This document shows positions 1 to 22,480 of a stretch of DNA of 23,133 nucleotides, piece by piece. The DNA lies in IMG/VR virus record IMGVR_UViG_3300032326_000223, positions 1-23,133 of that record. One strand, written 5' to 3'. Positions within the stretch are counted from its first letter, which is position 1, and each line of letters opens with the position of its first letter. Origin of the DNA: a virus. Below the pieces are notes generated by a model. The model ran no database searches. It saw only the letters and a list, made by a program, of their open reading frames with translations, and was not told where the DNA came from. The position numbers and the translations under genes are program-made.

Positions 1-273
1 ACCTTGTGCACCATTTGTACCCTGATTGCCTTGTGGTCCTTGTACACCACTACTACCCGCAGTTCCATTTACACCTTGCGGTCCAACTTCACCTTGTGGT
101 CCTTGTGTACCCTGCGAACCATTAGTTCCCGACGTCCCATTACTACCATTTACACCTTGATTTCCCTGTGGTCCTTGTACTCCACTACTACCAGTAGTTC
201 CATTTATACCTTGAGGTCCAATTGGTCCTTGATTACCTTGTGCACCGGATGTTCCACTTGTACCCGATGTTCC
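1..273 (-). repeat. Gly-X-Y collagen repeat array with an internal 135-nt-offset duplication
   Basis: The coding strand shows a glycine codon every 9 nt from 273 down to the edge. A six-triplet block at 157-210 is repeated nearly identically at 22-75, offset by 135 nt (15 triplets). Both copies encode GIN/GVN-GTT/GTA-GSS-GVQ-GPQ-GNQ. This suggests the shaft grew by in-frame duplication and can change length by recombination. Confidence 0.85.
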
Positions 274-546
274 AGTTGAAACTGATGATGAAACTGCGTT
301 TATTCTACTATGAAAAGATGCAGAATTTGTATTAAATATTGTAGTAGCTAATTTTGTATCAAGTGAATTACTTAATGCATTTGTTACTAAATCAGTTGCA
401 AATGCACCATCCAACGAAGATGTTAATTGATTTATTGAAATTTTATAAGTTGTACTACCAGATATACCAACCACAAAAGTTGTATCCAATGTTGCACTAG
501 TTAATGCTTCTAACTCGCTTATTTTTTTTGTTGGTGTAAATCTCAT
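1..546 (-). CDS. Collagen-like virion fibre/appendage protein (partial, C-terminus beyond window)
   Basis: The frame is open from ATG at 546 to the left window edge, giving 182 codons without a stop. The start lies one base after the TAA of the upstream gene (TAAGATG), which suggests translational coupling. The N-terminus (about residues 1-50) carries a KISELEALTSATL stretch followed by a short beta-type segment ending in INQL, a layout I associate with the virion-attachment end of phage fibres. Residues about 51-90 are Ser/Thr-rich and probably helical. From about residue 92 to the edge there are 30 uninterrupted Gly-X-Y triplets rich in Gln, Asn, Ser, Thr and Pro, the signature of a collagen-like trimeric shaft. 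Position after the neck and tail-completion genes fits a tail or neck fibre. The receptor-binding tip, if there is one, lies outside the window. Collagen-like structural protein is secure; the exact attachment point is inference. Confidence 0.85.
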   Translation of the reverse strand, partial: MRFTPTKKISELEALTSATLDTTFVVGISGSTTYKISINQLTSSLDGAFATDLVTNALSNSLDTKLATTIFNTNSASFHSRINAVSSSVSTGTSGTSGTSGAQGNQGPIGPQGINGTTGSSGVQGPQGNQGVNGSNGTSGTNGSQGTQGPQGEVGPQGVNGTAGSSGVQGPQGNQGTNGAQG

Positions 547-8387: not shown

Positions 8388-10034
8388 TTAGATGTTAGCC
8401 AAGCCTTCAACTAAAATCTTACCATAAAATTCGGGTCTAACTAACTTCTTCGCGTAACGAGTCATAACACCTCTACGTGGAGTAAAGTTATCTGGGTCAT
8501 ACACTAATGGAGTTAAAATCAAAGGTACATATGGAGCATATACCGCACCAGTCTCAAGGAAGTTATTTCCTTTGTAACCCAATAAGATTTCGTTAGAAGT
8601 CATGTAAGGGTTTTTGTAAACTGTGTAACGGTTAGCCAATGAACCTACTTGAGTTACACCTGCTGCAAATTGTTTAGCATCTTTATCAGCGTTTACAGAG
8701 AAAGCTGGGATTGATTCTAAAATAGTACAAACGTCTGGAGAAGCAACGATAAAGTTAGCTCCACCACGCATTGTCAATTGGTGAATTTTGTTAGATACTT
8801 TGTTTAATTTAGTTCCTAAAGTCTGGAACCAAGTGTTTTTAGTGTAAGCACTTGCGTTAGCTGAATCAGAATCAACTGCGAATGCTGAACCATTCCACTC
8901 ATTACCAATCTTTGTAGACCAGTATTCAGTAGTCAATGCATTTCCTTTCAATAAATCCAAGATTTCCAAGTCAATCTCTAAAGAGATATATTCAGATAAC
9001 ATAGCAGTCAATTCAGCTTCTGCGTCAATTGAGTGGTATGCGTTCAAATCTTGTGCTAATTCTGGAGTCCACACTGCTTTCAACTTACGAGTTTTAGCAA
9101 CGATTGCTTCAGATTTCAATTCTAAATCTACTTGAGGAATGTTCAAGTTAGTACCACCTGATGGGTTGTTGATAGGGTCTCTATCTTCGAAATCACCACG
9201 AGATGTTGCAGTTGGTTGTACAGAGTACACTAAACCGATAGTAGCAGCAGTTGAACCTGAAGCCAATACTGATGAACTTACGATTAACGAAACTTGTCCG
9301 TTAGAAGAGTAAGTAGTCAATGCCGGGTAGTAAGTGTTGATTGAACCAGAAGTTCCACCTTGTAATGAACCAGATACATAGAATGAACGTACTGCGTTAG
9401 TATCAGCAGATAATGCTGCAACTGAAGCAGATGCTAAAGTAATTTTGTACAAGTTACCAGCAGAAACTGAAGCTGATAAAGATGAATCAAAATTGATGTC
9501 AGCTAAAGAAGTAACTTTAGCTGCAGTAGCGAAAGATACGATAGCAGATTGGTCATTAACCGAATATGCATAACGTCCTTCACCATAAAGACCATTTACA
9601 GGTGCATTAGTTGAACCTAACTTCGCTGCAGATGTTCCACCATATAAAGATGTGCTAGATGCATCACCATATCCTTTTCCAGTTGAACCATATTTGAAGT
9701 CCATGTAGAAAATCAAACCCGATGGTAAGTTCATTGGTTGAACCGAAACAAATTCCTTTGCTGCGATTTCACCAAAGATACGACGTACCAAAGGTAAAGC
9801 TACACCAGACCATTCTTCAGAACCACCTGAAAAACCTGTCTTTGTAGTCTCGTCTAATAATTGTTTTGCTTGGTTTTCTAAAATTACAGCCATTCCGTGC
9901 TCTTCAGTTGCACCAGTTAAGCCTTCTAATAAACCAGTTTTTTCCCACTTGTTTTTCAACCCGCGAGTTTGCTCAAGCATAACCGCAGTTGGGTTTTTGC
10001 CTTCCATTAATTTGTTTAAATTAAATTGTGCCAT
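8388..10034 (-). CDS. Major capsid protein precursor (gp23-like)
   Basis: 548 aa, in the T4 gp23 size range (521). Gp23-like marks: NKWEKTGLLEGL (about 29-40), AVILENQAKQLLDE (49-62), LVRRIFGEIAAKEFVSVQPM (about 80-99), AEAELTAMLSEYISLEID (about 340) and the C-terminal YVPLILTPLVYDPDNF with RRGVMTRY. A Ser/Ala-rich insertion (about 160-280) probably forms an extra surface domain. T4 gp23 is trimmed by the prohead protease after an xxE site at residue 65. Here LLDE followed by T ends at residue 62 and is the natural candidate; the extreme N-terminus also holds LME-G (residues 9-12). It sits 20 bp downstream of the scaffold gene, as in T4, and is closed by a terminator. Confidence 0.93.
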   Translation of the reverse strand: MAQFNLNKLMEGKNPTAVMLEQTRGLKNKWEKTGLLEGLTGATEEHGMAVILENQAKQLLDETTKTGFSGGSEEWSGVALPLVRRIFGEIAAKEFVSVQPMNLPSGLIFYMDFKYGSTGKGYGDASSTSLYGGTSAAKLGSTNAPVNGLYGEGRYAYSVNDQSAIVSFATAAKVTSLADINFDSSLSASVSAGNLYKITLASASVAALSADTNAVRSFYVSGSLQGGTSGSINTYYPALTTYSSNGQVSLIVSSSVLASGSTAATIGLVYSVQPTATSRGDFEDRDPINNPSGGTNLNIPQVDLELKSEAIVAKTRKLKAVWTPELAQDLNAYHSIDAEAELTAMLSEYISLEIDLEILDLLKGNALTTEYWSTKIGNEWNGSAFAVDSDSANASAYTKNTWFQTLGTKLNKVSNKIHQLTMRGGANFIVASPDVCTILESIPAFSVNADKDAKQFAAGVTQVGSLANRYTVYKNPYMTSNEILLGYKGNNFLETGAVYAPYVPLILTPLVYDPDNFTPRRGVMTRYAKKLVRPEFYGKILVEGLANI

Positions 10035-10054: not shown

Positions 10055-11251
10055 TTATTTAATTAATCCTGCTAATTGTTTAAATCTATCAGAGTAAGCA
10101 GAATTTTCGCTGATGATTTGTTTTTTAACACCTGTACTCTTTTGTGGTTTAGAAGCTCCTTCAGTAATTCTCTTTACAGATTGTACTTTCTTAACACTTC
10201 CACCCATCTTCATAGATTCGGCGATTGTTGAGTAAACCAATTTCACTTCACGAATTGTTCCAGTTCTATCGAATGAATCAATAACTTTTGTTTTTTGTTC
10301 GTTAGTCAAATTGTATCCTCTAAATAATTTGTTAGAATATAAAAGTTTAGCGTTCAATAAGTTAATCTCATTGATTGTAGACTTCAAAGTTTTGATTACA
10401 GATATTGCTTGTCTCAATTCATTTTTCAATGATTTTGCTTCTGCTACTGCTGCTTTCTCTTCTTCTTCTGCTGCTTCTTCGTCTTCTAATTCTTTGATGA
10501 TAGATTCGATGTTTAATTCTTCTTCTTCACCTTCTTCTTCACCTTCTTCCATTTCAGAAGCTTCTTCGTCTTCACCATATCCTTCTAATTTAGCTATTTC
10601 TTTTCTTAATTCAGCGATTTTTTCTGCGTTAGGATTTTCTTCTTCTTCATCTTCTTCCGAAATTGATGAATCTGAATCATCTGCGTTCATGTAAGTATCA
10701 ACATCATCTGCATCTTCTTCCATTTCATCATCTGCTCCTAATTCGTCTTCTAATTCACGAATAATAGCTTCTAAATCTAAATCATCTTCAGATGGAGCTT
10801 CCATAGAATCATCTTCCATATCTTCACCTTCTTCCATTTCAGCTGCATCTTCCGCTGCATCTTCCATTGAATCTTCGTCTTCTTCTTCTGTGATTGATTT
10901 AGCGAAATCATAATCTTCAACCTCATCCTCTGGCTTACCAGAAGTTTTAGTTACGTCTGCTGCACCTAACTCATCTTCATCAGCTGCTGAATCTAATGTT
11001 GGTTGTGCACCACCTCCAATGTTAGAAGAACTTAATTCTTCTTCCATTTTATCTTCTTCTTCCTCTTCTCCCTCATGCATTTCGTCATCAGCTTCCATAT
11101 CTTCAGCTTCTGCACGCAATTTTTGAGAAAGAATTGACTTCAAACGAGGAGTAAATGCTTCCTCTAATTGAAGTTTTGCGTTTGCTAATGCAGTTTCTCT
11201 TACAGCTTTAGCATCGGCGATTGCTTCTTTTAACAATTTTGAACTTGCCAT
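10055..11251 (-). CDS. Prohead core scaffolding protein (gp22-like)
   Basis: 398 aa, extremely acidic through residues about 48-260 with long Glu/Asp runs, flanked by a helical N-terminus (ALANAKLQLEEAFTPRLKSI, about 21-40) and a basic, helical C-terminus (about 265-398). This is the usual build of T4-like scaffolding cores, which fill the prohead and are degraded by the prohead protease. The N-terminus has KLLKEA, an LxE-type site. It lies immediately upstream of the capsid gene, as gene 22 does before 23 in T4. The acidic core makes sequence similarity unreliable, so the call rests on composition, ends and position. It is longer than T4 gp22 (269 aa). Confidence 0.82.
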   Translation of the reverse strand: MASSKLLKEAIADAKAVRETALANAKLQLEEAFTPRLKSILSQKLRAEAEDMEADDEMHEGEEEEEDKMEEELSSSNIGGGAQPTLDSAADEDELGAADVTKTSGKPEDEVEDYDFAKSITEEEDEDSMEDAAEDAAEMEEGEDMEDDSMEAPSEDDLDLEAIIRELEDELGADDEMEEDADDVDTYMNADDSDSSISEEDEEEENPNAEKIAELRKEIAKLEGYGEDEEASEMEEGEEEGEEEELNIESIIKELEDEEAAEEEEKAAVAEAKSLKNELRQAISVIKTLKSTINEINLLNAKLLYSNKLFRGYNLTNEQKTKVIDSFDRTGTIREVKLVYSTIAESMKMGGSVKKVQSVKRITEGASKPQKSTGVKKQIISENSAYSDRFKQLAGLIK

Positions 11252-11419: not shown

Positions 11420-11662
11420 TTATTTATATAAACTACGAAATTTTTTTGGTATTTCTTTTAATTTTTTACCTCTGTAAAGGTCTTTTTGCTGAACCAGTTG
11501 TTTTCTTTCAGCTTTTTCCATCATTTCTCTTTTAGTAACGGATGGTTTAGTAAATTGTTGTCTATCTCTTAATTCTTTAACAACACCAATTGCATCAAAC
11601 TTTTTCTTTAATTTTTTTAATGCTCCAGCAATATTGCCGTCTTTTACTTCAATGTTAATCAT
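11420..11662 (-). CDS. rpsU: Phage-encoded ribosomal protein bS21 homologue
   Basis: 80 aa. Residues 1-55 follow the bS21 pattern: a first strand and KDGNI, then ALKKLKKKFDAIGVVKELRD and RQQFTKPSVTKR. The KDG-NI, KKFD and RQxFxKPSVxKR details fit Bacteroidetes bS21 better than the E. coli form. Bacteroidetes bS21 has about 64 residues, and this one carries a basic C-terminal extension (about 60-80, RGKKLKEIPKKF). In the 30S subunit bS21 sits beside the 16S 3' tail; in Flavobacterium it helps hide the anti-Shine-Dalgarno. The residue aligned with the conserved Tyr54 of flavobacterial bS21 is Arg53 here. Last gene of the head operon, 4 bp after its neighbour. bS21 homologues are known in some large and marine phages. 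Confidence 0.88.
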   Translation of the reverse strand: MINIEVKDGNIAGALKKLKKKFDAIGVVKELRDRQQFTKPSVTKREMMEKAERKQLVQQKDLYRGKKLKEIPKKFRSLYK

Positions 11663-11666
11663 AACT

Positions 11667-12029
11667 TTACTTTTGTTCTACTTTAGTATAACGTTGATTT
11701 TTATCGTTTTGTATTCTTTTCTTTGTTGATTTTACTTTATCATAAGATGGAGCACCATTGATATATCCACCGGGTAGGGATAAACCTACACCAGCTCCAC
11801 CGGGAAACCCATCTTCTTTAACCATAGACTCTGAACAACCGATTGCATCATAGAACTTACTATAATCAAACTTTATTCCTTCATCTTTGAATTGTCTTAC
11901 CATATTATCAGCAATAGATTTACGATTTTCTACATCTAATACTTGATTTAGAATATCAACAATACCATCTACCATTTGGTATTCGTTATTGTCTAACTTT
12001 TCTTTTAATATAGTTTTTAACTTTATCAT
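11667..12029 (-). CDS. Candidate internal head protein with MIKL-type targeting peptide (e)
   Basis: 120 aa. Begins MIKLKTILKEK, an amphipathic peptide with Glu at position 10 after LKE, shared in layout with the four genes upstream. The remainder is helical (about 12-60), followed by a Gly-rich loop (PGGAGVGLSLPGGYINGAP, about 76-94) and a strongly basic tail (about 98-120) with many Lys/Arg, which could bind packaged DNA. The start overlaps the previous stop (TAATG). Family not recognised by name; the Gly-rich loop is familiar from other marine T4-like phages. The role as a packaged head protein is inference from the N-terminus and position. Confidence 0.65.
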   Translation of the reverse strand: MIKLKTILKEKLDNNEYQMVDGIVDILNQVLDVENRKSIADNMVRQFKDEGIKFDYSKFYDAIGCSESMVKEDGFPGGAGVGLSLPGGYINGAPSYDKVKSTKKRIQNDKNQRYTKVEQK

Positions 12030-12874
12030 TATAGTTTTTTTAATAAAGTATCCATATCAATTTCAAATGCGTAACCTGCACCACTATGTCTTTTGTCCGG
12101 AATAACTTTCAATCCTAATTTCTTTTCTAAACGAATTTGAACCAATAATAAAAAATCTGCATCTGCACCATTACCCAATTCTTTTTTGATTGTATCTACT
12201 TTTTCTACATCTTTTGTTGAAGCTGGAATTAAAACAATCTTACCTTCTTTTGCCGATGTGTAGAATATAATACCACTTGTTATTGGAGTGGCATGCGAAA
12301 AATCTAATTTTGTAGTTGCTTCTTCTATTACCTCTTCTTTAACTTGTGGTTTGAATGCACTATGATATGGATTAGAATAAACAACTCCTTGCTGAAAACT
12401 TATACCTTCTTTTTTTAAAGTTCTCTTTTTAAGAATTATTTGTTGGATTTGTGAAAATATAGATTGTATATCTTTATCCAATTGCTTTTCTTCTGGACTC
12501 ATCGGTGTTGTCATATCAACATTTGAGTAAAGTTTTTTCTTTTTAGCAATTAATACATCTACTTTTTTAATTAAATCGTTTTTTACTTTATCCAAGTCTT
12601 TTACGATTTCAGGTGCAGTTTCTTCTTTTACATATCCTTTGGATGTGTAATCTTTTCTTGCTTTTAAATAATCAGTTTTATTTTTCTTTATATAAGAAAG
12701 TAATTCTGCAGTTGTATCAAATGATTTTTGACCTGAACCTTTTATGTTGTCAATCCAAAATGAGTCAGAGTCTCTATCGTATGAGTAATCACCAACTTTT
12801 TTGCCATCTAATGTTATTACACTTTTTTCGGCTTTCCAAGTCTCTTCTTTTAAGAATTTATTTAACTTTATCAT
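12029..12874 (-). CDS. Candidate internal head protein with MIKL-type targeting peptide (d)
   Basis: 281 aa from the ATG at 12874, which overlaps the preceding TAA (TAATG); a longer in-frame start five codons upstream would break the MIKL alignment. Begins MIKLNKFLKEET. Residues about 16-84 form a small domain with DSFWIDNIKG and DYTSKGYVKEE, echoed in the protein at 15898-16596. Residues about 85-155 are a lysine-rich coiled coil (KVKNDLIKKVDVLIAKKKK). The C-terminal about 90 residues are a separate mixed domain ending in a helix (EIDMDTLLKKL). No catalytic motif recognised. Suggested as a processed internal head protein from its N-terminus and its neighbours. Confidence 0.65.
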   Translation of the reverse strand: MIKLNKFLKEETWKAEKSVITLDGKKVGDYSYDRDSDSFWIDNIKGSGQKSFDTTAELLSYIKKNKTDYLKARKDYTSKGYVKEETAPEIVKDLDKVKNDLIKKVDVLIAKKKKLYSNVDMTTPMSPEEKQLDKDIQSIFSQIQQIILKKRTLKKEGISFQQGVVYSNPYHSAFKPQVKEEVIEEATTKLDFSHATPITSGIIFYTSAKEGKIVLIPASTKDVEKVDTIKKELGNGADADFLLLVQIRLEKKLGLKVIPDKRHSGAGYAFEIDMDTLLKKL

Positions 12875-13164
12875 TATCCTATATAGCAATTAAGTTCGTA
12901 TCCGTTTTTCATTCCGTATACCTGAATATGCAATTGTTTGTTTGTTGGTTTATCACCTTTAGTCAATTCAACAGAAACTTTAACAGTCTTTCCTTCCGAT
13001 GGTTTACGAGGTCCCATTCCTATCTTTCTAAATGAGTCATCATCATCTACCATATATCCTCTTTTCAACGCATATTCTTTGGCAGTTTGAATTGCTTCCG
13101 TATATGATTTGTGATATACTTTGAAATCGGTTGCTTCGCTTAATAAATCGGCTAACTTTATCAT
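12874..13164 (-). CDS. Candidate internal head protein with MIKL-type targeting peptide (c)
   Basis: 96 aa. Begins MIKLADLLSEAT, with the LSE-A arrangement of a T4-type prohead-protease site. The body has a helix ending in KRGYMVDDDDSF, then RKPSEGKTVKVSVELTKGDK and a final LHIQVYGMKNGYELNCYI. This compact alpha/beta fold recurs as a hypothetical protein in other T4-like marine phages. Function unknown. The conserved body occurring behind a targeting-type peptide fits a protein carried inside the head. 9 bp separate it from the upstream gene's stop. Confidence 0.65.
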   Translation of the reverse strand: MIKLADLLSEATDFKVYHKSYTEAIQTAKEYALKRGYMVDDDDSFRKIGMGPRKPSEGKTVKVSVELTKGDKPTNKQLHIQVYGMKNGYELNCYIG

Positions 13165-13175
13165 ATTTTTAGTAA

Positions 13176-13457
13176 TTAATTGACAGTTTCTATTCCATTT
13201 TCATCACCTCTGCTAGCAGTTTTGATACCACCCTCAATTGAAGATAACTTATGTCTAACTTTCTTTGAACCTTTCACTCTACCATTTTCGTCTGATGGTA
13301 CTAATGTTGCTGAATAATCATCCATTTCAACAACTTTGTAGTATTTACCACCTTCAATTCCTTTTAATCCAGTAAAACCAATTCCCAAAATTACAGAACC
13401 AACATATAAATTGGTTGGATATTTTGCTTCGCTTAATAAATCGTTTAACTTTATCAT
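13176..13457 (-). CDS. Candidate internal head protein with MIKL-type targeting peptide (b)
   Basis: 93 aa. Begins MIKLNDLLSEAK. The body is a small beta-barrel-like domain (residues about 15-75: LYVGSVILGIGFTGLKG, KYYKVVEMDDYSATLVP) with basic patches (KGSKKVRHK), reminiscent of SH3- or KOW-like folds. No family is firmly recognised. Removal at the LSE-A site would leave an about 83-residue domain. The context (second of five MIKL genes after the protease gene) supports a packaged protein. Confidence 0.6.
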   Translation of the reverse strand: MIKLNDLLSEAKYPTNLYVGSVILGIGFTGLKGIEGGKYYKVVEMDDYSATLVPSDENGRVKGSKKVRHKLSSIEGGIKTASRGDENGIETVN

Positions 13458-13472
13458 CTTATTTTTTTATTA

Positions 13473-14201
13473 TCAATGTTTAAGCAAATCATTTATTACT
13501 TTATCGTATAATCTTTGACTATTTGTATTACCAGCTCCAGTAAATCCTCTTTCTTTTTGTAAATATGCAACAACTCTACCTCTCAATGTTCTTTCAACTT
13601 CATTTGATTGTATTACTTTTTTAACGGCTGATTTAATATCATCGTATTCAGGAAATTCGTTTCCATTGGCATCTCTTGCTTCGTTTGTTTTACCTGCTCT
13701 TAAATCTGCTAAATCATCTGAACCAATATCACCATCTTTATCAACATCTAATTTGTGTTGATTTCCAACTAGCTTTTCGTTACGAATACCTAATCTTTGG
13801 TTTACTTCTTCTTCACTCAATTCACTAACACCATAGTATCTACCTATAATATGTCCCATATCTTCGTATAGGTTTTCCATTTGTGAATGTAATGATTTTG
13901 CCTCGTTAGCAATCTTTTCGAATTGAGATGATAGTTTCCCTAGCTCATTCATATTGCGTTTGACTGTGCTCTCGTCAAAGTGATTACCAGCTTCTTTATT
14001 AGCGAACTCACTAGCTGCGTCTGTAATTGCACCTAATGTTTCAGCAATTTGTGCCAAATCATTCTCATGCTTTAACTTTGGTCCAAATGAACCATAAGTA
14101 GAAATGATTTCTAAAAAGTGTCTTCTTGCTTCGTTGCTTAAAGTTTGTTTAGGTGCTTTCTTATCTTCACCTTCACCCATTAATTTCTTTAACTTTATCA
14201 T
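13473..14201 (-). CDS. Candidate internal head protein with EF-hand-like loop and MIKL-type peptide (a)
   Basis: 242 aa from the ATG at 14201, four bases after the start of the preceding stop codon; an in-frame ATG five codons upstream is less likely since this start gives MIKLKKLMGEGE, aligned with its neighbours. Residues about 20-130 are helical (helix bundle, heptad-like). Residues 152-163 (DVDKDGDIGSDD) form a calcium-binding loop of EF-hand/dockerin type with Asp at 1, 3, 5, 7 and an acidic residue at 12. The C-terminal about 60 residues are helical and basic. Function unknown; calcium-dependent assembly or stability is plausible. Confidence 0.65.
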   Translation of the reverse strand: MIKLKKLMGEGEDKKAPKQTLSNEARRHFLEIISTYGSFGPKLKHENDLAQIAETLGAITDAASEFANKEAGNHFDESTVKRNMNELGKLSSQFEKIANEAKSLHSQMENLYEDMGHIIGRYYGVSELSEEEVNQRLGIRNEKLVGNQHKLDVDKDGDIGSDDLADLRAGKTNEARDANGNEFPEYDDIKSAVKKVIQSNEVERTLRGRVVAYLQKERGFTGAGNTNSQRLYDKVINDLLKH

Positions 14202-14202
14202 C

Positions 14203-14427
14203 TTATTTTGCTTCAAATTGTTCTATAAGTTTGATTGCCATATCAATGTGCTTGATTGCTTCTTTGCTATAAGGTGCAATGTTATGCTTAACCTCTTTCA
14301 ATCTATCTAATGATTTTTCACGAGTCATTGCGTGCATTGCTGCTTCTAACAAATCTCTTCTTTCTTGCTCATTAGATTTGGCTTTAATCTTATTAGAAGC
14401 CATATATTGCGTTATATTAAATGCCAT
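14203..14427 (-). CDS. Small helical protein next to prohead protease (gp67/gp68-position)
   Basis: 74 aa, almost wholly helical and charged (NEQERRDLLEAAMHAMTREK, KHIDMAIKLIEQFEAK), not recognised as a family. It follows the protease gene by 7 bp. In T4 small core proteins (gp67, gp68) are encoded beside gene 21 and shape the prohead core, so a core or shape-determining role is a reasonable guess from place and build. No sequence match is claimed. Confidence 0.55.
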   Translation of the reverse strand: MAFNITQYMASNKIKAKSNEQERRDLLEAAMHAMTREKSLDRLKEVKHNIAPYSKEAIKHIDMAIKLIEQFEAK

Positions 14428-14434
14428 ATTTTTA

Positions 14435-15019
14435 TTAGTTTAATTCTTCTATAATTTGTCTCATTAAATCTTGTGATTTACACCACTTTCCACATTCTTC
14501 GATTTCTCTTTTAACACTTTCATTCATAGCAGTTGGAGACATGAATGCACCATGTGTAGATGGATTTGAAACGAAGTCCCATCCGATTAATTCAAAATCT
14601 TCTTGTACCATTACAGTATTCTCTCTCATAGGTTTAACTGAACCCATACCTCTACTACTAATACCCAAACGGATATTGTGTTTGAATAACTCTTTTAAGA
14701 TGTTACCAGATGGGGTTGATAGAACTTCTACTGTACCACATAAGTCTTTACCATCCCACCAAATCTCTTTGATGTTATGTGATACGTTCTTTAAGTTGAT
14801 TACAGTCGATTCTGGATGGTCTAATTCACCTAATGCTCTACGTTCTTGTATTAGGGTTTCGTATTTCTTTGCTTCCCTCTGTAATATGTTAAGAGGATAG
14901 ATACGATGATTTTGATTAGGAGCATCCGCACGTTGCAATACACCTTTAACCAAAAATTTTCCGTTTGCATCTTCCTGTATAGTTCCTTCGAAAAGGTTAT
15001 GCTCTATTAATAATCCCAT
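14435..15019 (-). CDS. Prohead core protease (gp21-like)
   Basis: 194 aa, near the T4 gp21 size (212). Motifs of the T4 prohead protease family (herpesvirus-assemblin-like fold): NQNHRIYPLNIL (about 36-46), ALGELDHPE with catalytic His68, LGISSRGMGSV with the nucleophile Ser (121 or 122), and IGWDFVSNPSTHGAFM (about 145-160). The enzyme sits in the prohead core, cleaves scaffold, capsid and internal proteins after xxE sites (LxE/IxE in T4), then degrades itself. It lies upstream of scaffold and capsid genes, the T4 order, but here seven genes stand between. The five MIKLxxxLxE proteins directly downstream are its obvious candidate substrates. Confidence 0.93.
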   Translation of the reverse strand: MGLLIEHNLFEGTIQEDANGKFLVKGVLQRADAPNQNHRIYPLNILQREAKKYETLIQERRALGELDHPESTVINLKNVSHNIKEIWWDGKDLCGTVEVLSTPSGNILKELFKHNIRLGISSRGMGSVKPMRENTVMVQEDFELIGWDFVSNPSTHGAFMSPTAMNESVKREIEECGKWCKSQDLMRQIIEELN

Positions 15020-15022
15020 ATC

Positions 15023-15895
15023 TTATGCTAGTAAGTAGTAATACTCTTTAAAATGTTTGATTCGGTCAGCCAATCCTATTGTACCACCATTTACTCTTTT
15101 TGTTATTTGTGTAACTACCGCATCGGAAGACCCACCATCAGCTAACTTATGTAATCCGTTTTTAGAGAAGAACCAAGCTGCCGAGAGCAAAGCGTATTTT
15201 GATGCAACCACATCTGGGTTAGCACAAACATCTTCACCGATGGACTTACCGAATGCGGTATAGTTTTCCTTTCCAGTTAATTGAATATATCCACGTCCTC
15301 TGAATTTGTAGCCCTCACGAGTTGCTTCAACTCCATTTCCCATACGTCCACCATATACTCTACTTGCAATCATCTCCGGCTTTCTCTCATATGCCATTGC
15401 TAATTGCACCGTTGGAAAGTATTTCTTAAATATACCCATCAATCCTTTTGCAGAATAGTTTAGGTTTTCTTGTGTTGCTTTGAAACCACCACTTTCATGT
15501 CCACATTGTGCCAAAAAGTGTGCTAATCTTAAAGGAGTGTTTATACCAAACTTCGCTGCCGTATCTGGAATCATAGCGATTACGTGTGCAGGAATATGTC
15601 CTTTTAATTTATCTAATTTTAAACCAGGATAAGATGGTGATGCTGCAACTGTTGGTGCAGGTGCTACAACGGGTGTAGGAGTTGCTACTACTGCCGGTTT
15701 AGGAACTGGAGTTAAACCCATAATCTTATTCCAAGTATTTGGTCCAACAATACCATCTGCTGCCAAACCATTTTTAGTTTGCCAAGCTTTAACCGCATCT
15801 TCCGTTTTTGGTCCGAAATTACCAACTGGGTCTAGTCCCAATTTAACCTGTAATTTCTTTACATCTTCGTTATTATCACCTCTCTTCAATAACAT
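15023..15895 (-). CDS. Endolysin: peptidoglycan-binding domain plus GH19 glycosidase
   Basis: 290 aa from the ATG at 15895, two bases after the preceding TAA; a start ten codons upstream would overlap the previous gene by 28 nt. Residues 1-60 are a PG_binding_1 domain (RGDNNEDVKKLQVKLGL, FGPKTEDAVKAWQ, DGIVGPNTW). Residues about 61-90 are a Pro/Ala/Val-rich linker. Residues about 95-290 are a GH19 chitinase/lysozyme-type domain with HFLAQCGHESGG (catalytic Glu134) and YKFRGRGYIQLTGKENY (about 196-212). It cleaves peptidoglycan glycan strands for lysis. No signal peptide, so release would need a holin or another route. Its place inside the head-assembly operon, next to the protease gene, is unusual. 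Confidence 0.92.
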   Translation of the reverse strand: MLLKRGDNNEDVKKLQVKLGLDPVGNFGPKTEDAVKAWQTKNGLAADGIVGPNTWNKIMGLTPVPKPAVVATPTPVVAPAPTVAASPSYPGLKLDKLKGHIPAHVIAMIPDTAAKFGINTPLRLAHFLAQCGHESGGFKATQENLNYSAKGLMGIFKKYFPTVQLAMAYERKPEMIASRVYGGRMGNGVEATREGYKFRGRGYIQLTGKENYTAFGKSIGEDVCANPDVVASKYALLSAAWFFSKNGLHKLADGGSSDAVVTQITKRVNGGTIGLADRIKHFKEYYYLLA

Positions 15896-15897
15896 AA

Positions 15898-16596
15898 TTA
15901 ATCCCTCTCTTGTTTTGCTTTCCAAGCTGCATCTACTTTATTAAAAAATGCTTTCTTTTCATCATCACTCATAGATGGAATAGATTTACCAGCTTTATCC
16001 ATTACTTTTTGGAAAAACCTTTGGTATTCTGCTTCCTCTTGCATTACCTCTCTTACGATTGATTTTAATGCTTCTCTCTTTAATGATTTTTGCTTACCCA
16101 TAGTTTGTGGTAATCCGTTTGCTACGTTTTCAATATTTTCTTTAACAAATCCTTTAGAAGAATAATTTTTAATTCCTTTTTCTAAATCCACTTTGTTTTT
16201 AAAAATTTCAATATCCCAAAAATCACTTCCATCTTTGTGTTTTTTTACACCATCATGTGAACTGATACTATATTTTGCTTTACCAATACCAGGATTTACT
16301 TTGAATGCTTTTTTGCCTTCGTTTACGGATTCGAATCTAAAGTCCTGATTCTTTTGTGATTCTGCACTTACTACTGCTAATAAACCAACTTTTGATTTAG
16401 GAACTTTTAATTGAGTAATTGCTTTTTGTTTTGCATCATACAAATCTTTTCCATCAATATCAATTTTTTTACCCATAAAGAATGCGATGAACTTTGTTTC
16501 CTCTAATTGTTGTTCTTGAACTTGTGCAGTTCTTGAACCAATTGGTCCACCTAATGCTTGAAGAGTAACGATACCCGATTTTGATAAATGTCTCAT
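15898..16596 (-). CDS. Hypothetical head-operon protein with two small conserved modules
   Basis: 232 aa. Residues about 34-90 contain KFIAFFMGKKIDIDGKDLYD, followed by AKQKAITQLKVPKSKVGLLA and NQDFRF, a module I recall from hypothetical proteins of other T4-like marine phages. Residues about 107-153 (KYSISS, GSDFWDIEIF, KNYSSKGFVKEN) resemble the N-terminal domain of the protein at 12029-12874. The C-terminal part is helical and charged (about 170-232). No catalytic motif. Starts after TAAT and ends 2 nt before the endolysin start. Probably a prohead-core or internal protein; function unknown. Confidence 0.6.
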   Translation of the reverse strand: MRHLSKSGIVTLQALGGPIGSRTAQVQEQQLEETKFIAFFMGKKIDIDGKDLYDAKQKAITQLKVPKSKVGLLAVVSAESQKNQDFRFESVNEGKKAFKVNPGIGKAKYSISSHDGVKKHKDGSDFWDIEIFKNKVDLEKGIKNYSSKGFVKENIENVANGLPQTMGKQKSLKREALKSIVREVMQEEAEYQRFFQKVMDKAGKSIPSMSDDEKKAFFNKVDAAWKAKQERD

Positions 16597-17940: not shown

Positions 17941-19779
17941 TTATTCGATTATATTTTGCTCATCCATCATACTCTTACCTTCCATTATCACTTTTGCTCC
18001 ACCGGATTTTAGAGATTTTTTGATTGATTTGATGAAACTTTCATTGCTTCTACTTAATTTTCTCAACTCTTTATCGCCAAAAGCATCTCTACCATACATA
18101 TGGTCATCTTTACCCATACGATTTACATCACGCGGTCTACCCGATGCTTTTGCTTCATTTGGTGATTGACCTAACTTTGATTTTAAATCTTGTATAGTTT
18201 TTTCAACATCCAATGGCTCTCCTGTTGGGAACTCTTCTTCTGGTTGTTCTTCTTCAGGTTGTTCTTCACCACCTTGTTGTGGTTGTCCAGCCATCATACC
18301 ACCTTGCTCTTGCTGTCCTTCTGGTTTACCGGTTGTTTCTAAATTAGTTAATACAAATGTATTTTTAGCATCTTTAACTAAACCTTTTTTCATATCTTCA
18401 ACATCATCATCGCTGAAATTGAATACGTTTTTATACATCCAATCTTTTGAGATAAGTTTTAAATCACCCATTGTTCTAGCTAAATCTACTTTGGATGCCC
18501 ACAATTCAATTTTAGATTGTTCGTAGATTGTATATGGGATAGTTAATGATAATTCAAAATCAGCTAATGTTTCATCCTCAATACCTTGTGAGTATAAGTG
18601 AATGATTGCAATCTTTTCTAATTCAGATGTTACTATTCTTTGAACTCTTTCAATTGTTTTAGCAAATCTCATATCCATAGCTGCTAATGTAGCTTTTGAA
18701 TTACCATCTTCTAAAAATCCTAAATGTTGTTTTGGTATTTTTAATGCCGCAAACATTTTATCTTTTAAGTAGTTTATATCATCAATAGGAGCATACTCTA
18801 AACCATCCAAATTTTCAATAGATGTTCCACTATCATTACCACGAACTGGTAGATAGAAATCTTCCATCAAGTTTTGAATGTTATACTTTAAGTTATACTC
18901 ACCCGTATCTGCATTGATAATTGGTGCTTTCTTTGATTTGTTGATAATACGCTGAATGTAATTATCAATCTCATTTGTAGGAATGTTACCCACATCAATT
19001 TTGTAGATACGCTTTTGTGGTGCTCTTGATATACGATGTATAATCATTGCATCTTCCATCAATGTAATTTGTTTCCACAATCTTCTTGCACTTTCTAACA
19101 TAGATTTACCATAAGGTAAAAAGTTAGTATCTGTCAACATACGAAAGTGAGCAATCTCGTAGTTTTCGTATTCTGTTTTTTGTCCAGCTACATAAAGTGA
19201 TTTAGTTGCTAATGGAGTATGAACGAATTTAACTGCTTGCCAATTGTTTGGGTCAAATCCTTCAACACGAGTAATTTCATAAACTGAAAGTGGTTGGATA
19301 CCAACTACACCTAACTCTTCTGCAATCTCAATATGTAAAAAGTGGTCACCATATTTAACCAAACTTCTTACCCAAGGGAATAAATTAAATTCAACATTTA
19401 TAATATCGTAGAATAAGTTTTCTAATATGGATTTTATTTGTTCGTTGTTAGTTCTAACTTCTAATACCTTTCCGTATTCGTTTTTAGATGTAGACTCTTC
19501 TGCGTAAATATCTAATGCAGCACCAATGATTGGGTCAGCATCCATAGCATCATAATCTCTAAAAAGTTCTTGTCGTATTTGTTGGTAAGCAAGATAGTTC
19601 TCATAGGTATTATTCATAGCCGATGAGTGTAATCTCATATATCTATCACGTAGATTGGTAGCAATTGCTTGCGTTTCATCGTAATCAATTACCTTTAACT
19701 TATTCCCCTGCTTTCTTACGATTACCGATGTGGAGAATAGTTTGTTTAACCTACCAAAAAATGATTTATCTGTTGCCAT
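17941..19779 (-). CDS. Portal protein (gp20-like)
   Basis: 612 aa (T4 gp20: 524). Gp20 hallmarks: DPIIGAALDIYAEES (about 82-96), LFPWVRSLVKYGDHFLHIEI (about 133-152), FLPYGKSMLESARRLWKQIT (220-239) and SRAPQKRIYKIDVGNIP (251-267), then DINYLKDKMFAALKIPKQHL (334-353). The dodecameric portal forms the DNA gate at the prohead vertex and binds TerL and the neck. Residues about 485-520 are a Gln/Gly/Glu low-complexity linker followed by a C-terminal extension (about 525-612) absent from T4 gp20. It ends with a basic helix and VIMEGKSM, possibly trimmed or core-interacting. Start ATG lies 92 bp after the previous stop. Confidence 0.93.
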   Translation of the reverse strand: MATDKSFFGRLNKLFSTSVIVRKQGNKLKVIDYDETQAIATNLRDRYMRLHSSAMNNTYENYLAYQQIRQELFRDYDAMDADPIIGAALDIYAEESTSKNEYGKVLEVRTNNEQIKSILENLFYDIINVEFNLFPWVRSLVKYGDHFLHIEIAEELGVVGIQPLSVYEITRVEGFDPNNWQAVKFVHTPLATKSLYVAGQKTEYENYEIAHFRMLTDTNFLPYGKSMLESARRLWKQITLMEDAMIIHRISRAPQKRIYKIDVGNIPTNEIDNYIQRIINKSKKAPIINADTGEYNLKYNIQNLMEDFYLPVRGNDSGTSIENLDGLEYAPIDDINYLKDKMFAALKIPKQHLGFLEDGNSKATLAAMDMRFAKTIERVQRIVTSELEKIAIIHLYSQGIEDETLADFELSLTIPYTIYEQSKIELWASKVDLARTMGDLKLISKDWMYKNVFNFSDDDVEDMKKGLVKDAKNTFVLTNLETTGKPEGQQEQGGMMAGQPQQGGEEQPEEEQPEEEFPTGEPLDVEKTIQDLKSKLGQSPNEAKASGRPRDVNRMGKDDHMYGRDAFGDKELRKLSRSNESFIKSIKKSLKSGGAKVIMEGKSMMDEQNIIE

Positions 19780-19813: not shown

Positions 19814-19883
19814 TTTTACTCATTTTTACCACTTTTAGGTGTTTAGTGGTAATTTATAGTTTTACTCAATTTTACCACTTTCT
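19814..19883 (-). repeat. Direct repeat with inverted arm (two alternative hairpins) before portal
   Basis: A 22-nt direct repeat (TTTTACTCA[T/A]TTTTACCACTTT on the plus strand) occurs at 19814-19835 and 19860-19881, with one mismatch. Between them 19845-19852 (AGTGGTAA) is complementary to TTACCACT in either copy (19826-19833 or 19872-19879). Two mutually exclusive 8-bp hairpins are therefore possible in the mRNA. One includes the stop codon of the upstream gene. No T run follows, so this is not a standard terminator. Confidence 0.6.
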
Positions 19884-20849
19884 ACAAGACCAATATCTTG
19901 CTTTGTGTCTTGGACCAGGTTGGTCACAATTATGTCTAGCTCTAAAAGACCTTCTTGCATCAGGATTAGATTTTCTTATTCTCATTGTTTTTTCACCTTT
20001 AGATGCTGCGGATGTACCACCATGTCCAAAGTTTACTTTAACAACATTACCTGCTGGATTTTTAACATATACTTTGAATTTTTTAACATCACCTCTCATT
20101 GGTTTTCCTAATTGAACATTTCTTCCCTGATATTCAGCTTCAAATACACAATTGCAATTTTCCTCATCTAATGTATTTCTGTATGCTTTTAGGAACTGAA
20201 TAAAATCTTGTATATCTTCTCTATCAACATCCAACTCATCGTAATCATCATCTACCTCATTTACAGGTACACAATTTGGAACTTGCTTTCCACCTTTATC
20301 TTTCATTCCTACTTGCTTATATCCATCCCAACAAGCTTCACATAATGCATTAGCTTCTCCTTCGTTACAAGTCTTCCAACCACCGCCTTTTGATTTATAG
20401 TTCTTTGCAGCCCAACCATTTGCGTATGCAGATGGATAAACATCAAACTTTGATTTAGCTGCCGATTTAGATGCAGACCACTTTGCCGGGTCAGTTGGAC
20501 AATTCTTTTCTAAAAAAAGATTTAATTTTTCGTAGATATTCATACTTTCTTTTTTTGGTTTTGTAGAAACATATATTGGCGTTTTACCCTGCCCACTACT
20601 ACTTTTACCACCTCTATCTGCATCATTTTGTGCTGCTCTTTTTCTACGAGTTGCACTTTCTTTTTCTTTTTTGCTCATTCCGGCAGCTTTTGATGCTGGA
20701 ACACATTTTGCATATCCCTTCTTTTCGCCGGAAGTACCACATGGTGGGTGTTTTCCATCAACTTTCTTGCCGATGTTTACCCATTTTTCCTTAAACCACT
20801 TGCGTAAATCTTCTTTTACTATATTACGCAATTTAATATTACCATTCAT
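19872..20849 (-). CDS. Cys-containing multi-module protein between TerL and portal
   Basis: 325 aa from the ATG at 20849 (an upstream TTG is less likely). Module 1 (about 1-75): IKLRNIVKED leader, then KWVNIGKKVDGKHPPCG, AKCVPASKAAGMSKKE and a basic tail, similar to a domain seen in phage and large-virus proteins (perhaps DUF5872). Module 2 (about 101-195): MNIYEKLNLFLEK, CPTDPAKWSASKSAAK and FDVYPSAYANGWAAKNYKSK, plus a Cys cluster (C161, C170, C173, C193). Module 3 (about 230-325): FKVYVKNPAGNVVKVNFG and RARHNCDQPGPRHKARYWSC, familiar from marine T4-like phages. Zinc or DNA binding is plausible. The internal Met103 starts a leader-like peptide, as if two genes had fused. Function unknown; probably head assembly. 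Confidence 0.65.
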   Translation of the reverse strand: MNGNIKLRNIVKEDLRKWFKEKWVNIGKKVDGKHPPCGTSGEKKGYAKCVPASKAAGMSKKEKESATRRKRAAQNDADRGGKSSSGQGKTPIYVSTKPKKESMNIYEKLNLFLEKNCPTDPAKWSASKSAAKSKFDVYPSAYANGWAAKNYKSKGGGWKTCNEGEANALCEACWDGYKQVGMKDKGGKQVPNCVPVNEVDDDYDELDVDREDIQDFIQFLKAYRNTLDEENCNCVFEAEYQGRNVQLGKPMRGDVKKFKVYVKNPAGNVVKVNFGHGGTSAASKGEKTMRIRKSNPDARRSFRARHNCDQPGPRHKARYWSCRKW

Positions 20850-20857
20850 ATACAATA

Positions 20858-20884: not shown

Positions 20885-22480
20885 CTATCGTAGTAACCAT
20901 CTTAAATCTTCAAACTCATCACCATGACCAGTTTGCATCTTATATGGGTCATCACCAAACATACCAGGTGTGTATAAACTATCATGTGATGTTTGTACAA
21001 ATCCATCAATAGAACGTCTTGTCAAATCAATACCTTCTTGTCTTAAACGTAGTGCAGTATCTCTAATCCACAACCCCATACCTAATGCCATCACCAAGTC
21101 ATCATTGTATCCTCTTGCTGCTTCTGCTCTACCATTGTTCCAAATAAATGTAAAGAACTCATCTATCGTTCTCTTACTATGAATAACAACACTCATATCT
21201 CTCATATAAGTGTCTATTTTTGATATTACTAATGGACGAGTTTTAGATGATATACTAAATCCTGGTACCATTTGTTTTTCATCTCTGTAAAACTTATTAG
21301 TAAATTGAGTATCAATATCTACATATTTAATATCTCTATTAGACCAGAATAGATTTTTGTAGTTTCTATCTAAACATTGTTGGATTGTTGTCCAACCAAT
21401 TGATGCGTTATCAATGATTAGTAAAGCATCATTATATTCAGTTGCCAAATTGATTAGGAAATTACCAAAATCTTTTGGTTCAATCTTACCTCTATATTCT
21501 GCAACTTGCTCACAATTTTCTGCTTCTATTACGTGGACGGTAGAATAATCTTCCCCATCACCCCTTGCAACGTCAGCAGTTACTATATAACTCTTTGCAT
21601 AATTAGGGTCTTCCCATACCCATAAATTATTATCAAACCCACGTTTATACATTGGGTCTTTAACATATGCTTCAATATACTTTGTTAGAATTTCCGGTTG
21701 AATTACCGTTGCTCCAGAACTGATAAAGTCACAATCACATTCTTGTGCTGCTCCTTTTGGTCCTAATTGTTTTTCTTGCTCCTCTCTCCAACTATTATCT
21801 CTTTCAGGGTGAACCGTCCAATGGAGTTTAATTGGATGAAATAAGTTTTCACCATTTTCTGCTTTTACCCAAGTTTGGTGAAACCAATTACCAATACCAT
21901 TTGGTGTAGATAATGCTATACAACTACCACCCGTTGATAGTGTAGATTGTGCCGATGTCCAAATCTCTTCAATGTAATCAATAAATGCTGCTTCATCAAA
22001 CACCAATAGGGATAGGGCTTCGGAACGCCCTGCATCTGGTTTAGATGAAATTGCTTTGATTTGAGAACCATTTTTTAATCGTAGAGATAGTTTATTATCT
22101 TCAGACTCTTGTACTCTCAACCATACTGGTAAGAATTGGTTCATTACTCTAACCTTTAGTACCAAGTTCTTTGCAACTTCTTGTTTAGTTGCAATAACCA
22201 ACACGTTAAAGTCATCGTTGAATATCATTTTCCATAAAGCATATCCAGCAACTAATGTCGATATACCTAATTGACGAGATTTTAGAACAACATTAAAGCG
22301 ATTATCTTTAAAATCATTTAAAACTCCTTCTTGAAAATCATATAAATCAAAAGCGATTTTACCACGAGTTGGATGTTGAATTTTACAAAACTTACGCATG
22401 AAATAGACAGGGTCTTGCGCACATTTTCTGTATTGTTCTTTTACTGCATCTTGCAGAGATTTTGTTTGATTTGCGGCCAT
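20885..22480 (-). CDS. terL: Terminase large subunit (gp17-like ATPase/nuclease)
   Basis: 531 aa. The packaging motor pumps DNA through the portal and cuts concatemers. N-terminal ATPase: Walker A KSRQLGIST (67-75), Walker B LLVFDE with catalytic Glu163 (158-163), coupling motif ALSTPNG (189-195). C-terminal RNase H-like nuclease: TADVARGD with Asp303, LLIIDNAS with Asp357, and GYNDDLVMAL with Asp460/461, corresponding to the acidic triad of T4 gp17. All key residues are present. Somewhat shorter than T4 gp17 (610 aa). No small terminase gene is seen in the window; it may lie beyond the right edge. Eleven-base gap after the upstream gene. Confidence 0.95.
   Translation of the reverse strand: MAANQTKSLQDAVKEQYRKCAQDPVYFMRKFCKIQHPTRGKIAFDLYDFQEGVLNDFKDNRFNVVLKSRQLGISTLVAGYALWKMIFNDDFNVLVIATKQEVAKNLVLKVRVMNQFLPVWLRVQESEDNKLSLRLKNGSQIKAISSKPDAGRSEALSLLVFDEAAFIDYIEEIWTSAQSTLSTGGSCIALSTPNGIGNWFHQTWVKAENGENLFHPIKLHWTVHPERDNSWREEQEKQLGPKGAAQECDCDFISSGATVIQPEILTKYIEAYVKDPMYKRGFDNNLWVWEDPNYAKSYIVTADVARGDGEDYSTVHVIEAENCEQVAEYRGKIEPKDFGNFLINLATEYNDALLIIDNASIGWTTIQQCLDRNYKNLFWSNRDIKYVDIDTQFTNKFYRDEKQMVPGFSISSKTRPLVISKIDTYMRDMSVVIHSKRTIDEFFTFIWNNGRAEAARGYNDDLVMALGMGLWIRDTALRLRQEGIDLTRRSIDGFVQTSHDSLYTPGMFGDDPYKMQTGHGDEFEDLRWLLR

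Follow-up and report, generated by a model that had tools for sequence, protein, structure and literature searches.

We analysed a 23,133-nucleotide stretch of viral DNA (positions 1 to 23,133 of IMG/VR record IMGVR_UViG_3300032326_000223, referred to here as the window), in which five consecutive minus-strand genes, running from position 14201 down to 11667, open with a nearly constant peptide. A sequence-only reading of this DNA had drawn attention to an MIKLxxxLxE peptide with Glu at position 10 in five genes, to its near-constant nucleotide start and to the unrelated bodies behind it, and had proposed that the products are packaged internal proteins of a phage head. All five open reading frames (ORFs) are indeed present, and each starts with ATGATAAAGTTA, an exact 12-mer encoding MIKL, and has Glu at residue 10. 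We refer to the ten residues as the tag and to the remainder of each protein as its body; a slash within a peptide marks the start of a body or a candidate cleavage site. The genes, with lengths in amino acids (aa), are as follows.

13473-14201, minus strand: gene 1, 242 aa; tag MIKLKKLMGE/G at 14172-14201
13176-13457, minus strand: gene 2, 93 aa; tag MIKLNDLLSE/A at 13428-13457
12874-13164, minus strand: gene 3, 96 aa; tag MIKLADLLSE/A at 13135-13164
12029-12874, minus strand: gene 4, 281 aa, at least two modules; tag MIKLNKFLKE/E at 12845-12874
11667-12029, minus strand: gene 5, 120 aa, two modules; tag MIKLKTILKE/K at 12000-12029

Leu4 and Glu10 occur in all five tags, with L, L, L, F and I at position 7 and M, L, L, L and L at position 8 (genes 1 to 5). 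DNA similarity is lost right after the tag, in keeping with unrelated bodies: mean identity among the five genes is 78% across the 30-nucleotide (nt) tag, 32% across the next 60 nt and 37% across the 30 nt upstream. The bodies gave no convincing family in PHROGs or Pfam, and a model of the gene 3 body, of intermediate confidence (pLDDT 78.8, pTM 0.67), gave no Foldseek match at E ≤0.001 in the PDB. An EF-hand/dockerin-like loop, DVDKDGDIGSDD, is seen directly in the gene 1 product, as had been noted before. Candidate internal sites are found in gene 4 (GYVKE/ETA, after residue 84) and gene 5 (SMVKE/DGF, after residue 72).

The tag in related phages

We considered whether the tag might have arisen by chance, and rejected this on the basis of shuffled, reversed and permuted controls and of contigs selected in another way. 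The pattern ATGATNAARYT has six matches in the window (the five starts and a plus-strand match at 285), compared to a mean of 1.00 and a maximum of 4 in 100 shuffles. A scan of IMG/VR for the tag returned at least 120 stretches, compared to 1 for a permuted control pattern of the same codons; the 120 listed stretches hold 129 matches, 5 of which give fewer than 30 aa. Across 14 related or comparison records, we counted 32 tag-pattern matches (one of which, G003:124611, has an in-frame stop) compared to 2 for the reversed pattern. A separate count gave 2 matches of the tag pattern in LR756502 and none in four other comparison records. Similarly, 24 contigs found by the tag, which include all 19 of at least 40 kb among the 80 tag-scan loci listed and some from beyond those 80, contain 68 matches compared to 0 reversed, or at least 44 after subtracting one selecting match per contig. 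By comparison, the 26 contigs of at least 40 kb among the 80 listed loci of a scan with an unrelated 15-mer contain 2 tag matches, both on one contig, and 1 reversed.

The tagged proteins fell into 101 body clusters (blastp threshold, single linkage). These clusters rest on the tag pattern itself, at least one of them (L003:462-1124; L-numbers denote IMG/VR or comparison loci in this analysis) probably reflects an antisense ORF that arose by chance, and a 70-member cluster joins several bodies via multi-module proteins. When the proteins were instead grouped on the first 50 residues of their bodies, 269 proteins gave 121 groups. Among the 101 cluster representatives, residue 10 carries 3.97 bits, residue 11 carries 0.32 and positions beyond it about 0.1-0.3 (sampling bias 0.14). 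Since tag positions 1-8 and 10 were largely fixed by the search patterns, the sharp stop after Glu10 and the counts relative to controls are the less biased evidence. Synonymous codons vary over these representatives (Ile as ATT 64, ATA 28, ATC 8; Lys as AAA 72, AAG 24; Leu as TTA 67, CTA 16, CTT 10), which argues for selection on the peptide.

A recombinant at the tag was found in L005, in which the upstream DNA and tag of gene 2 are fused to the gene 3 body. The stretch missing from L005 is 293 nt, exactly the tag-to-tag distance, and its protease (see below) is 100% identical to that of the window at the protein level. Either the window gained the gene 2 body or L005 lost it. Because the tag is short and near-constant in DNA and protein among close relatives, it would lend itself to recombination from tag to tag, by which bodies would be deleted, added or swapped. 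The suggestion that the common peptide lets the phage exchange cargo is supported, at the level of sequence, by this recombinant.

Four other genes near the cassette are listed here.

14435-15019, minus strand: gp21-type prohead protease (Peptidase_S77), the presumed tag-cutting enzyme; from a profile match and an alignment with T4 gp21
14203-14427, minus strand: untagged gene of 74 aa between protease and cassette; from the ORF list
10055-11251, minus strand: gp22-like scaffold or core protein, the presumed docking partner of the tag; from position and acidic composition
8388-10034, minus strand: gp23-type major capsid protein; from a sequence match, with candidate maturation site NQAKQLLDE/T

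The protease matches the Peptidase_S77 profile at 2.8e-26 (92.7 bits; curated cut-off 27) and is 32% identical to T4 gp21 over 159 columns. Thus, the gp21-like gene that the cassette had been said to follow is indeed of that family, although the succession is not direct, as the untagged 74-aa gene intervenes.

We fetched 80 IMG/VR loci by the protease alone, 75 of which have at least 400 nt downstream. In 65 of these 75, at least one tagged ORF lies within 3.2 kb (as the first or second ORF in 54), with varying bodies, so that the conservation of the first residues behind changing bodies anticipated for related phages was mostly borne out. Conversely, when contigs were chosen by the tag, Peptidase_S77 was found above cut-off in 13 of 24 tagged contigs, compared to 3 of 26 control contigs (a fourth control fell below cut-off); restricted to contigs of at least 40 kb, the figures were 10 of 19 and 3 of 26 (P = 0.006 by Fisher's test, or 0.011 when the fourth control is included), the two sets not being matched for base composition. 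We detected gp23 in 12 of the 24 tagged contigs. We also note that, in many of the loci L030-L084, the protease is immediately followed by a short gene that begins with MAKLINLIPGRE or a close variant of it; this start is tag-like but has no LxE at residues 8-10.

A proposed route into the phage head

As described for T4 in PMC9026906, packaging of the internal protein IPIII requires no more than its first 10 residues, of which positions 4 and 7 act in targeting and positions 8 and 10 in cutting. An IPIII with Asp at position 10 is targeted nonetheless, and L/I-x-E is the motif after which gp21 cuts. The window tags, with L at 4, L, F or I at 7, L or M at 8 and E at 10, match each mapped position. 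They resemble the capsid-targeting sequences (CTSs) of T4 IPI, IPII, IPIII and Alt in being short N-terminal peptides (10 residues in IPII and IPIII) with hydrophobic or aromatic residues at 4, 7 and 8 and Glu10, placed before unrelated bodies in a phage with a gp21-type protease. They differ in sequence, MKTYQEFIAE in T4 IPII and IPIII compared to MIKLKDLLxE here, and in setting: T4 has three internal proteins in two loci, whereas here there are five in one cassette near the protease, with a wider variety of bodies and with multi-module cargo. Compared by eye with T4 ipI, ipII and ipIII, the tag showed no kinship with the T-even leader MKT(Y/F)xEF, only the same pattern of positions. Thus, it would work like a CTS without belonging to the T-even leader family.

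The closest of 14 T4 N-termini compared by eye is that of gp24, MAKINELLRE/S, in which we take the cut to fall after MAKINELLRE; gp24 is a shell protein, whereas the tag heads cargo proteins. Repoila et al. in 1994 reportedly described polymorphism of T-even internal proteins, with diverse bodies behind one leader that vary between related E. coli phages. The cassette is similar in its varied bodies behind one leader, differing between related phages; the difference is that the earlier case was described for T-even phages of E. coli. In one account, gp24 is listed among the T4 head proteins with propeptides of 10-20 residues (PMC5694885). In phiKZ and SPN3US, a gp21-family protease is described as cleaving inner-head proteins behind a short motif whose last residue is Glu, S/A-x-E in the case of phiKZ (PMC5694885, PMC9026906). 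Several of the propeptides there are longer than 100 residues, that of gp45 being one of 20, and the descriptions consulted mention no short tag in common.

Three observations concern leaders of the T4 type. The product of T4 gene 61.1 (NC_000866 18966-19130, minus strand), found with a T4-style pattern, starts MKTFKEFIKE and resembles the internal protein leaders. In giant phage records, 2H homologues start like the T4 leader, with MKLKKYKQFIKE/S (LR745206, L284) and MIKKYLEFMKE/S (LR756502, L285). Other tag dialects in these two records were tried and dropped, as the T4-dialect pattern gave 1 match in each and its control 1 match in LR756502.

We consider it highly probable that the products of the cassette are carried inside the head of a T4-like phage as cargo, delivered by means of a cleaved targeting tag. 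In the mechanism we propose, the MIKLxx[LIF][LM]xE tag would act as a capsid-targeting propeptide, through which each precursor would bind to the gp22-like core of the prohead. After cleavage behind Glu10 by the gp21-type protease, the freed body would stay in the head and be ejected into the host with the DNA. The earlier proposal of packaged internal proteins is in this sense supported, and it is from sequence alone that we infer packaging, cleavage, injection and function in the host. The presumed core protein (10055-11251) starts MASSKLLKE/A and has 19 [LIVMF]xE sites; it gave no convincing family match, and its gp22-like identity is presumed from position, composition and resemblance. At the gp23 site aligned with the T4 maturation cut, [LIV]xE (NQAKQLLDE and variants) is found in 25 of 26 distinct sequences, including that of the window, the 26th being truncated at the site. 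Thus, Val seems to be accepted at P3.

Since bodies also occur inside longer proteins, we examined what precedes them there. The gene 3 body, which in L005 stands under another tag, is found after SLNE/A (L106, 94% identity), SVNE/A (L114) and TVTE/A (L111, L102); the gene 2 body follows GYVKE/V in L096 and L111 (95% identity). In L014, the two parts of gene 5 belong to different proteins. For gene 4, the C-terminal part forms an independent gene, headed by a tag variant with Gly at residue 10, in L012 and L014 and in the contigs of L006, L007 and L010; by N-terminus alone, it is also separate in L008, L009 and L011. A possible sixth tag, of variant form, lies outside the cassette:

20811-20849, minus strand: possible tag of variant form, MNGNIKLRNIVKE/DLRKWF, heading the 19872-20855 gene
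19872-20855, minus strand: multi-module protein with this possible variant tag; from sequence comparison

Parts of the 19872-20855 product (DLRKWF, CWDGYKQ, EYQGR) stand directly behind tags in other contigs.

We collected 39 distinct internal junctions from 16 body groups, requiring at least 40 residues of the ORF upstream of the body, an alignment from body residue 1, an upstream Met and no tag-like start within 20 aa. Glu was at position -1 in 22 of the 39, compared to 0-8 of 39 at any other offset from -16 to +12; the residue at -3 was hydrophobic in 18, and [LIVMF]xE directly preceded the body in 18. Taking the best match per group, Glu was at -1 in 10 of 16 (background 8.1%) and [LIVMF]xE was present in 9 of 16 (background 3.0%); since a DLRKWF-like body is common to two of the groups, independence among the groups is incomplete. 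A looser count (Glu at -1 in 56 of 134) was replaced by this one, because it contained shifted tags. These results suggest that bodies standing behind [LIV]xE inside longer proteins are cargo modules bounded by protease sites; longer cargo would then be strings of modules, probably cut by the same protease that acts on the tag. What appears to be new relative to the T4 internal proteins is the much wider variety of bodies together with these module junctions, and we did not meet the idea of cargo as protease-cut strings of domains in the open-licence literature searched.

It is possible, although we think it the less probable course, that the tag targets cargo while the internal [LIV]xE sequences are acidic linkers and multi-module cargo stays whole. 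Cutting at the junctions is backed by sequence comparison, in which 6 of the 16 groups have no Glu at -1 in their best match; in contrast, a Glu peak exactly at -1 combined with a hydrophobic residue at -3 is the signature expected of the protease itself.

A somewhat less likely account holds that the tag does target the proteins and is cut, but that they are structural core components, like T4 gp67 and gp68, rather than injected effectors. Most relatives retain the gene 1 body next to the protease (the collected loci contain 87 distinct ORFs or ORF fragments that match it), which would fit an assembly factor, and T4 IPIII mutants are described as assembling heads more slowly (PMC9026906). In contrast, even phages with 96-100% identical proteases differ in the bodies that they carry between genes 1 and 5, and tagged bodies on other contigs include enzyme domains.

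Two accounts that do without targeting are very improbable. If the constant ATGATAAAGTTA were a translation start region, a promoter or a recombination site and the peptide incidental, as the constancy of the 12-mer at synonymous sites in the window, and nearly so in the nearest relatives, might suggest, we would not expect codons to vary over the 101 representatives while the residues hold to Glu10, 30 nt in, nor unrelated DNA (37%) upstream of the five starts. Likewise, tandem duplication with diverged bodies and an N-terminus kept for another role, such as membrane or chaperone binding, would fit the tags of genes 2 and 3, which are 93% identical across 30 nt, but not the presence of the tag on 101 clusters unrelated at the blastp threshold, unrelated domain families among them, nor the occurrence of one body under the tag, under a different tag and, preceded by [LIV]xE, within longer proteins.

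Several observations weigh against internal-head cargo as a complete description. No strict-pattern tag was found within 3.2 kb in 10 of the 75 protease loci; several of these have little downstream sequence, and one, L078, carries the near-tag MMKLKHILRE. Peptidase_S77 was not found in 11 of the 24 tagged contigs, including ones of 126 kb and 207 kb, although all may be fragments. LR756508, the nearest capsid relative, and Rhodothermus phage RM378 have S77 matches and zero tag-pattern matches; the tag is therefore not general even among S77 phages, and its absence from the nearest capsid relative slightly lowers our confidence. L006-L012 and L014 carry a gene starting MIKLTDL[VM]KG[YH]G, in which Gly replaces Glu10; cleavage at residue 10 is therefore not available to every tag. 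Moreover, 2H phosphoesterases in Molly_1, Pumpernickel, LR756508 and L197 have neither a tag nor a directly preceding LxE, and those of Molly_1 and LR756508 lie in records with S77 matches. The 19872-20855 gene has homologues in L042 and L081 that begin MNEDLNKWF and carry no tag, and the junction groups with no Glu at -1 count on this side as well. That all five proteins are in the virion is itself predicted from sequence.

Homologues that keep a body and lack the tag had been named in the sequence-only reading as telling against packaging, and such homologues do occur, in the gene 1 homologues of Mel-JY01 and L176 and in the internal gene 2 and gene 3 bodies. We found [LIV]xE still before the body in Mel-JY01 (VIAE/N), in L176 (IVNE, one residue earlier) and in most internal copies, and we read these cases as modular cargo rather than as a refutation. 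The objection keeps its force for the gene 3 body in L012, which is preceded by FYEG/A with no [LIV]xE, and for the gene 1 homologues of L202 and L204, which have neither a tag nor a directly preceding LxE.

Tagged proteins on other contigs

We searched 78 of the 101 cluster representatives and two further members against Pfam. Tagged proteins elsewhere matched NUDIX (two members), phage lysozyme, HD, GNAT and DUF5872. Tagged L213 matched Zeta_toxin (residues 24-168; 28.7 bits, cut-off 22.3) and NT5C (residues 255-389; 25.4 bits, cut-off 24.8), both above cut-off, and thus has a predicted P-loop kinase followed by a predicted HAD-type phosphatase, the order that we take to be that of T4 Pnk. 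Below cut-off were the matches of the tagged 2H protein L093 to Acb1 (19.5 bits, cut-off 27) and 2_5_RNA_ligase2 (26.8 bits, cut-off 27), although two H-x-T motifs are seen directly in it, and those to ART-PolyVal (L197) and to MPTase-PolyVal and DUF6782 (L126).

A 13-member tagged family has invariant FH, ST.T and NE motifs (12 members aligned). In a structural comparison of the model of its member L129, CteC was matched with Z 5.0 over 122 residues and DarT with Z 4.6 over 124, at ranks 6 and 16; the best Z was 5.7, and the rows mostly cover a helical stretch, whereas CteC and DarT match the globular part. The model had no Foldseek match at E ≤0.001, viral models included, and the query had no match in the phage collection. 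The likeness of this family to ADP-ribosyltransferases (ARTs) is thus suggestive only. Separately, Microcystis phage Mel-JY01 has four successive tag matches beside replication genes (60276-62762; L086-L089): three lead annotated genes (216, 60 and 220 aa) with a common ISDRVWH(L/V)T body, which is possibly an ART, and the fourth opens 18 codons only; the three annotated genes lie between 60276 and 62718. A tagged gene is also present in Flavobacterium phage immuto (immuto26A_40, MIKLIDLLTE/S).

T4 carries a NUDIX gene, Pnk and the RNA-ligase-like 57B, all without a leader; 57B is, we presume, Acb1. Proteins with ART, 2H and Nudix domains, some of them multi-domain, have been proposed as head-packed and injected, from MuF or portal fusions or gene neighbourhood (PMC9503650); polyvalent proteins (PMC5512222) are a comparable class. 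The tagged set has NUDIX, 2H and possible ART domains in common with these and differs in that a separable N-terminal tag marks each candidate. T4 Ip1-3 are reported to be inhibitors of type IV restriction enzymes (PMC12373910). Together with the packaging proposals, this makes it plausible that some of the tagged proteins act against host defences; for the five bodies of the window, such a role is a guess.

On balance, we favour the view that a large aquatic T4-like group uses a general delivery system, in which a tag and internal cut sites would allow swappable modules from about 100 families to be packed, cut and injected. With the same degree of confidence, we would include in the cargo RNA-repair kinase-phosphatases, NUDIX, HD, GNAT and lysozyme proteins, and metalloprotease-like, ART-like and anti-CBASS-like 2H enzymes. 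In that event, pre-made protein would confront host defences as the DNA enters. In T4, three internal proteins have such a leader, and their anti-restriction roles were worked out singly; if the tag works as we propose, it would be a computational handle for listing the injected proteins of uncultured phages, mostly functionless by annotation, and the question of which proteins phages inject would become answerable from sequence. In the open-licence literature, we found no tag strings, which proves little, no report of proteins of this group being sought in a virion, and none naming Mel-JY01.

Surrounding genes

On the minus strand, the window reads terminase, the multi-module gene, portal, further genes, protease, the 74-aa gene, the five tagged genes, S21, core and capsid. 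In the phage collection, the nearest relatives of the capsid protein are those of the uncultured giant phage LR756508 (55%), Flavobacterium phage immuto (52%) and Mel-JY01 (50%), which point to an aquatic phage; the host is perhaps one of the Bacteroidota. The remaining features are as follows.

20885-22480, minus strand: presumed terminase; from resemblance, position and composition
17941-19779, minus strand: presumed gp20-like portal; from resemblance, position and composition
15898-16596, minus strand: untagged protein with junction-like SVNE/G and GFVKE/N, and so possibly further cargo; from sequence
15023-15895, minus strand: peptidoglycan-binding and GH19-like domains, in a gene of the head block that lies immediately upstream of the protease
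11420-11662, minus strand: ribosomal protein bS21 gene (Pfam, 9.4e-15), between the cassette and the gp22-like gene
1-546, minus strand: collagen-like Gly-X-Y repeats (GTSGTSGTSGAQG...), in a protein that runs off the window end; from sequence

Mel-JY01 also has an annotated RpsU near its own protease.

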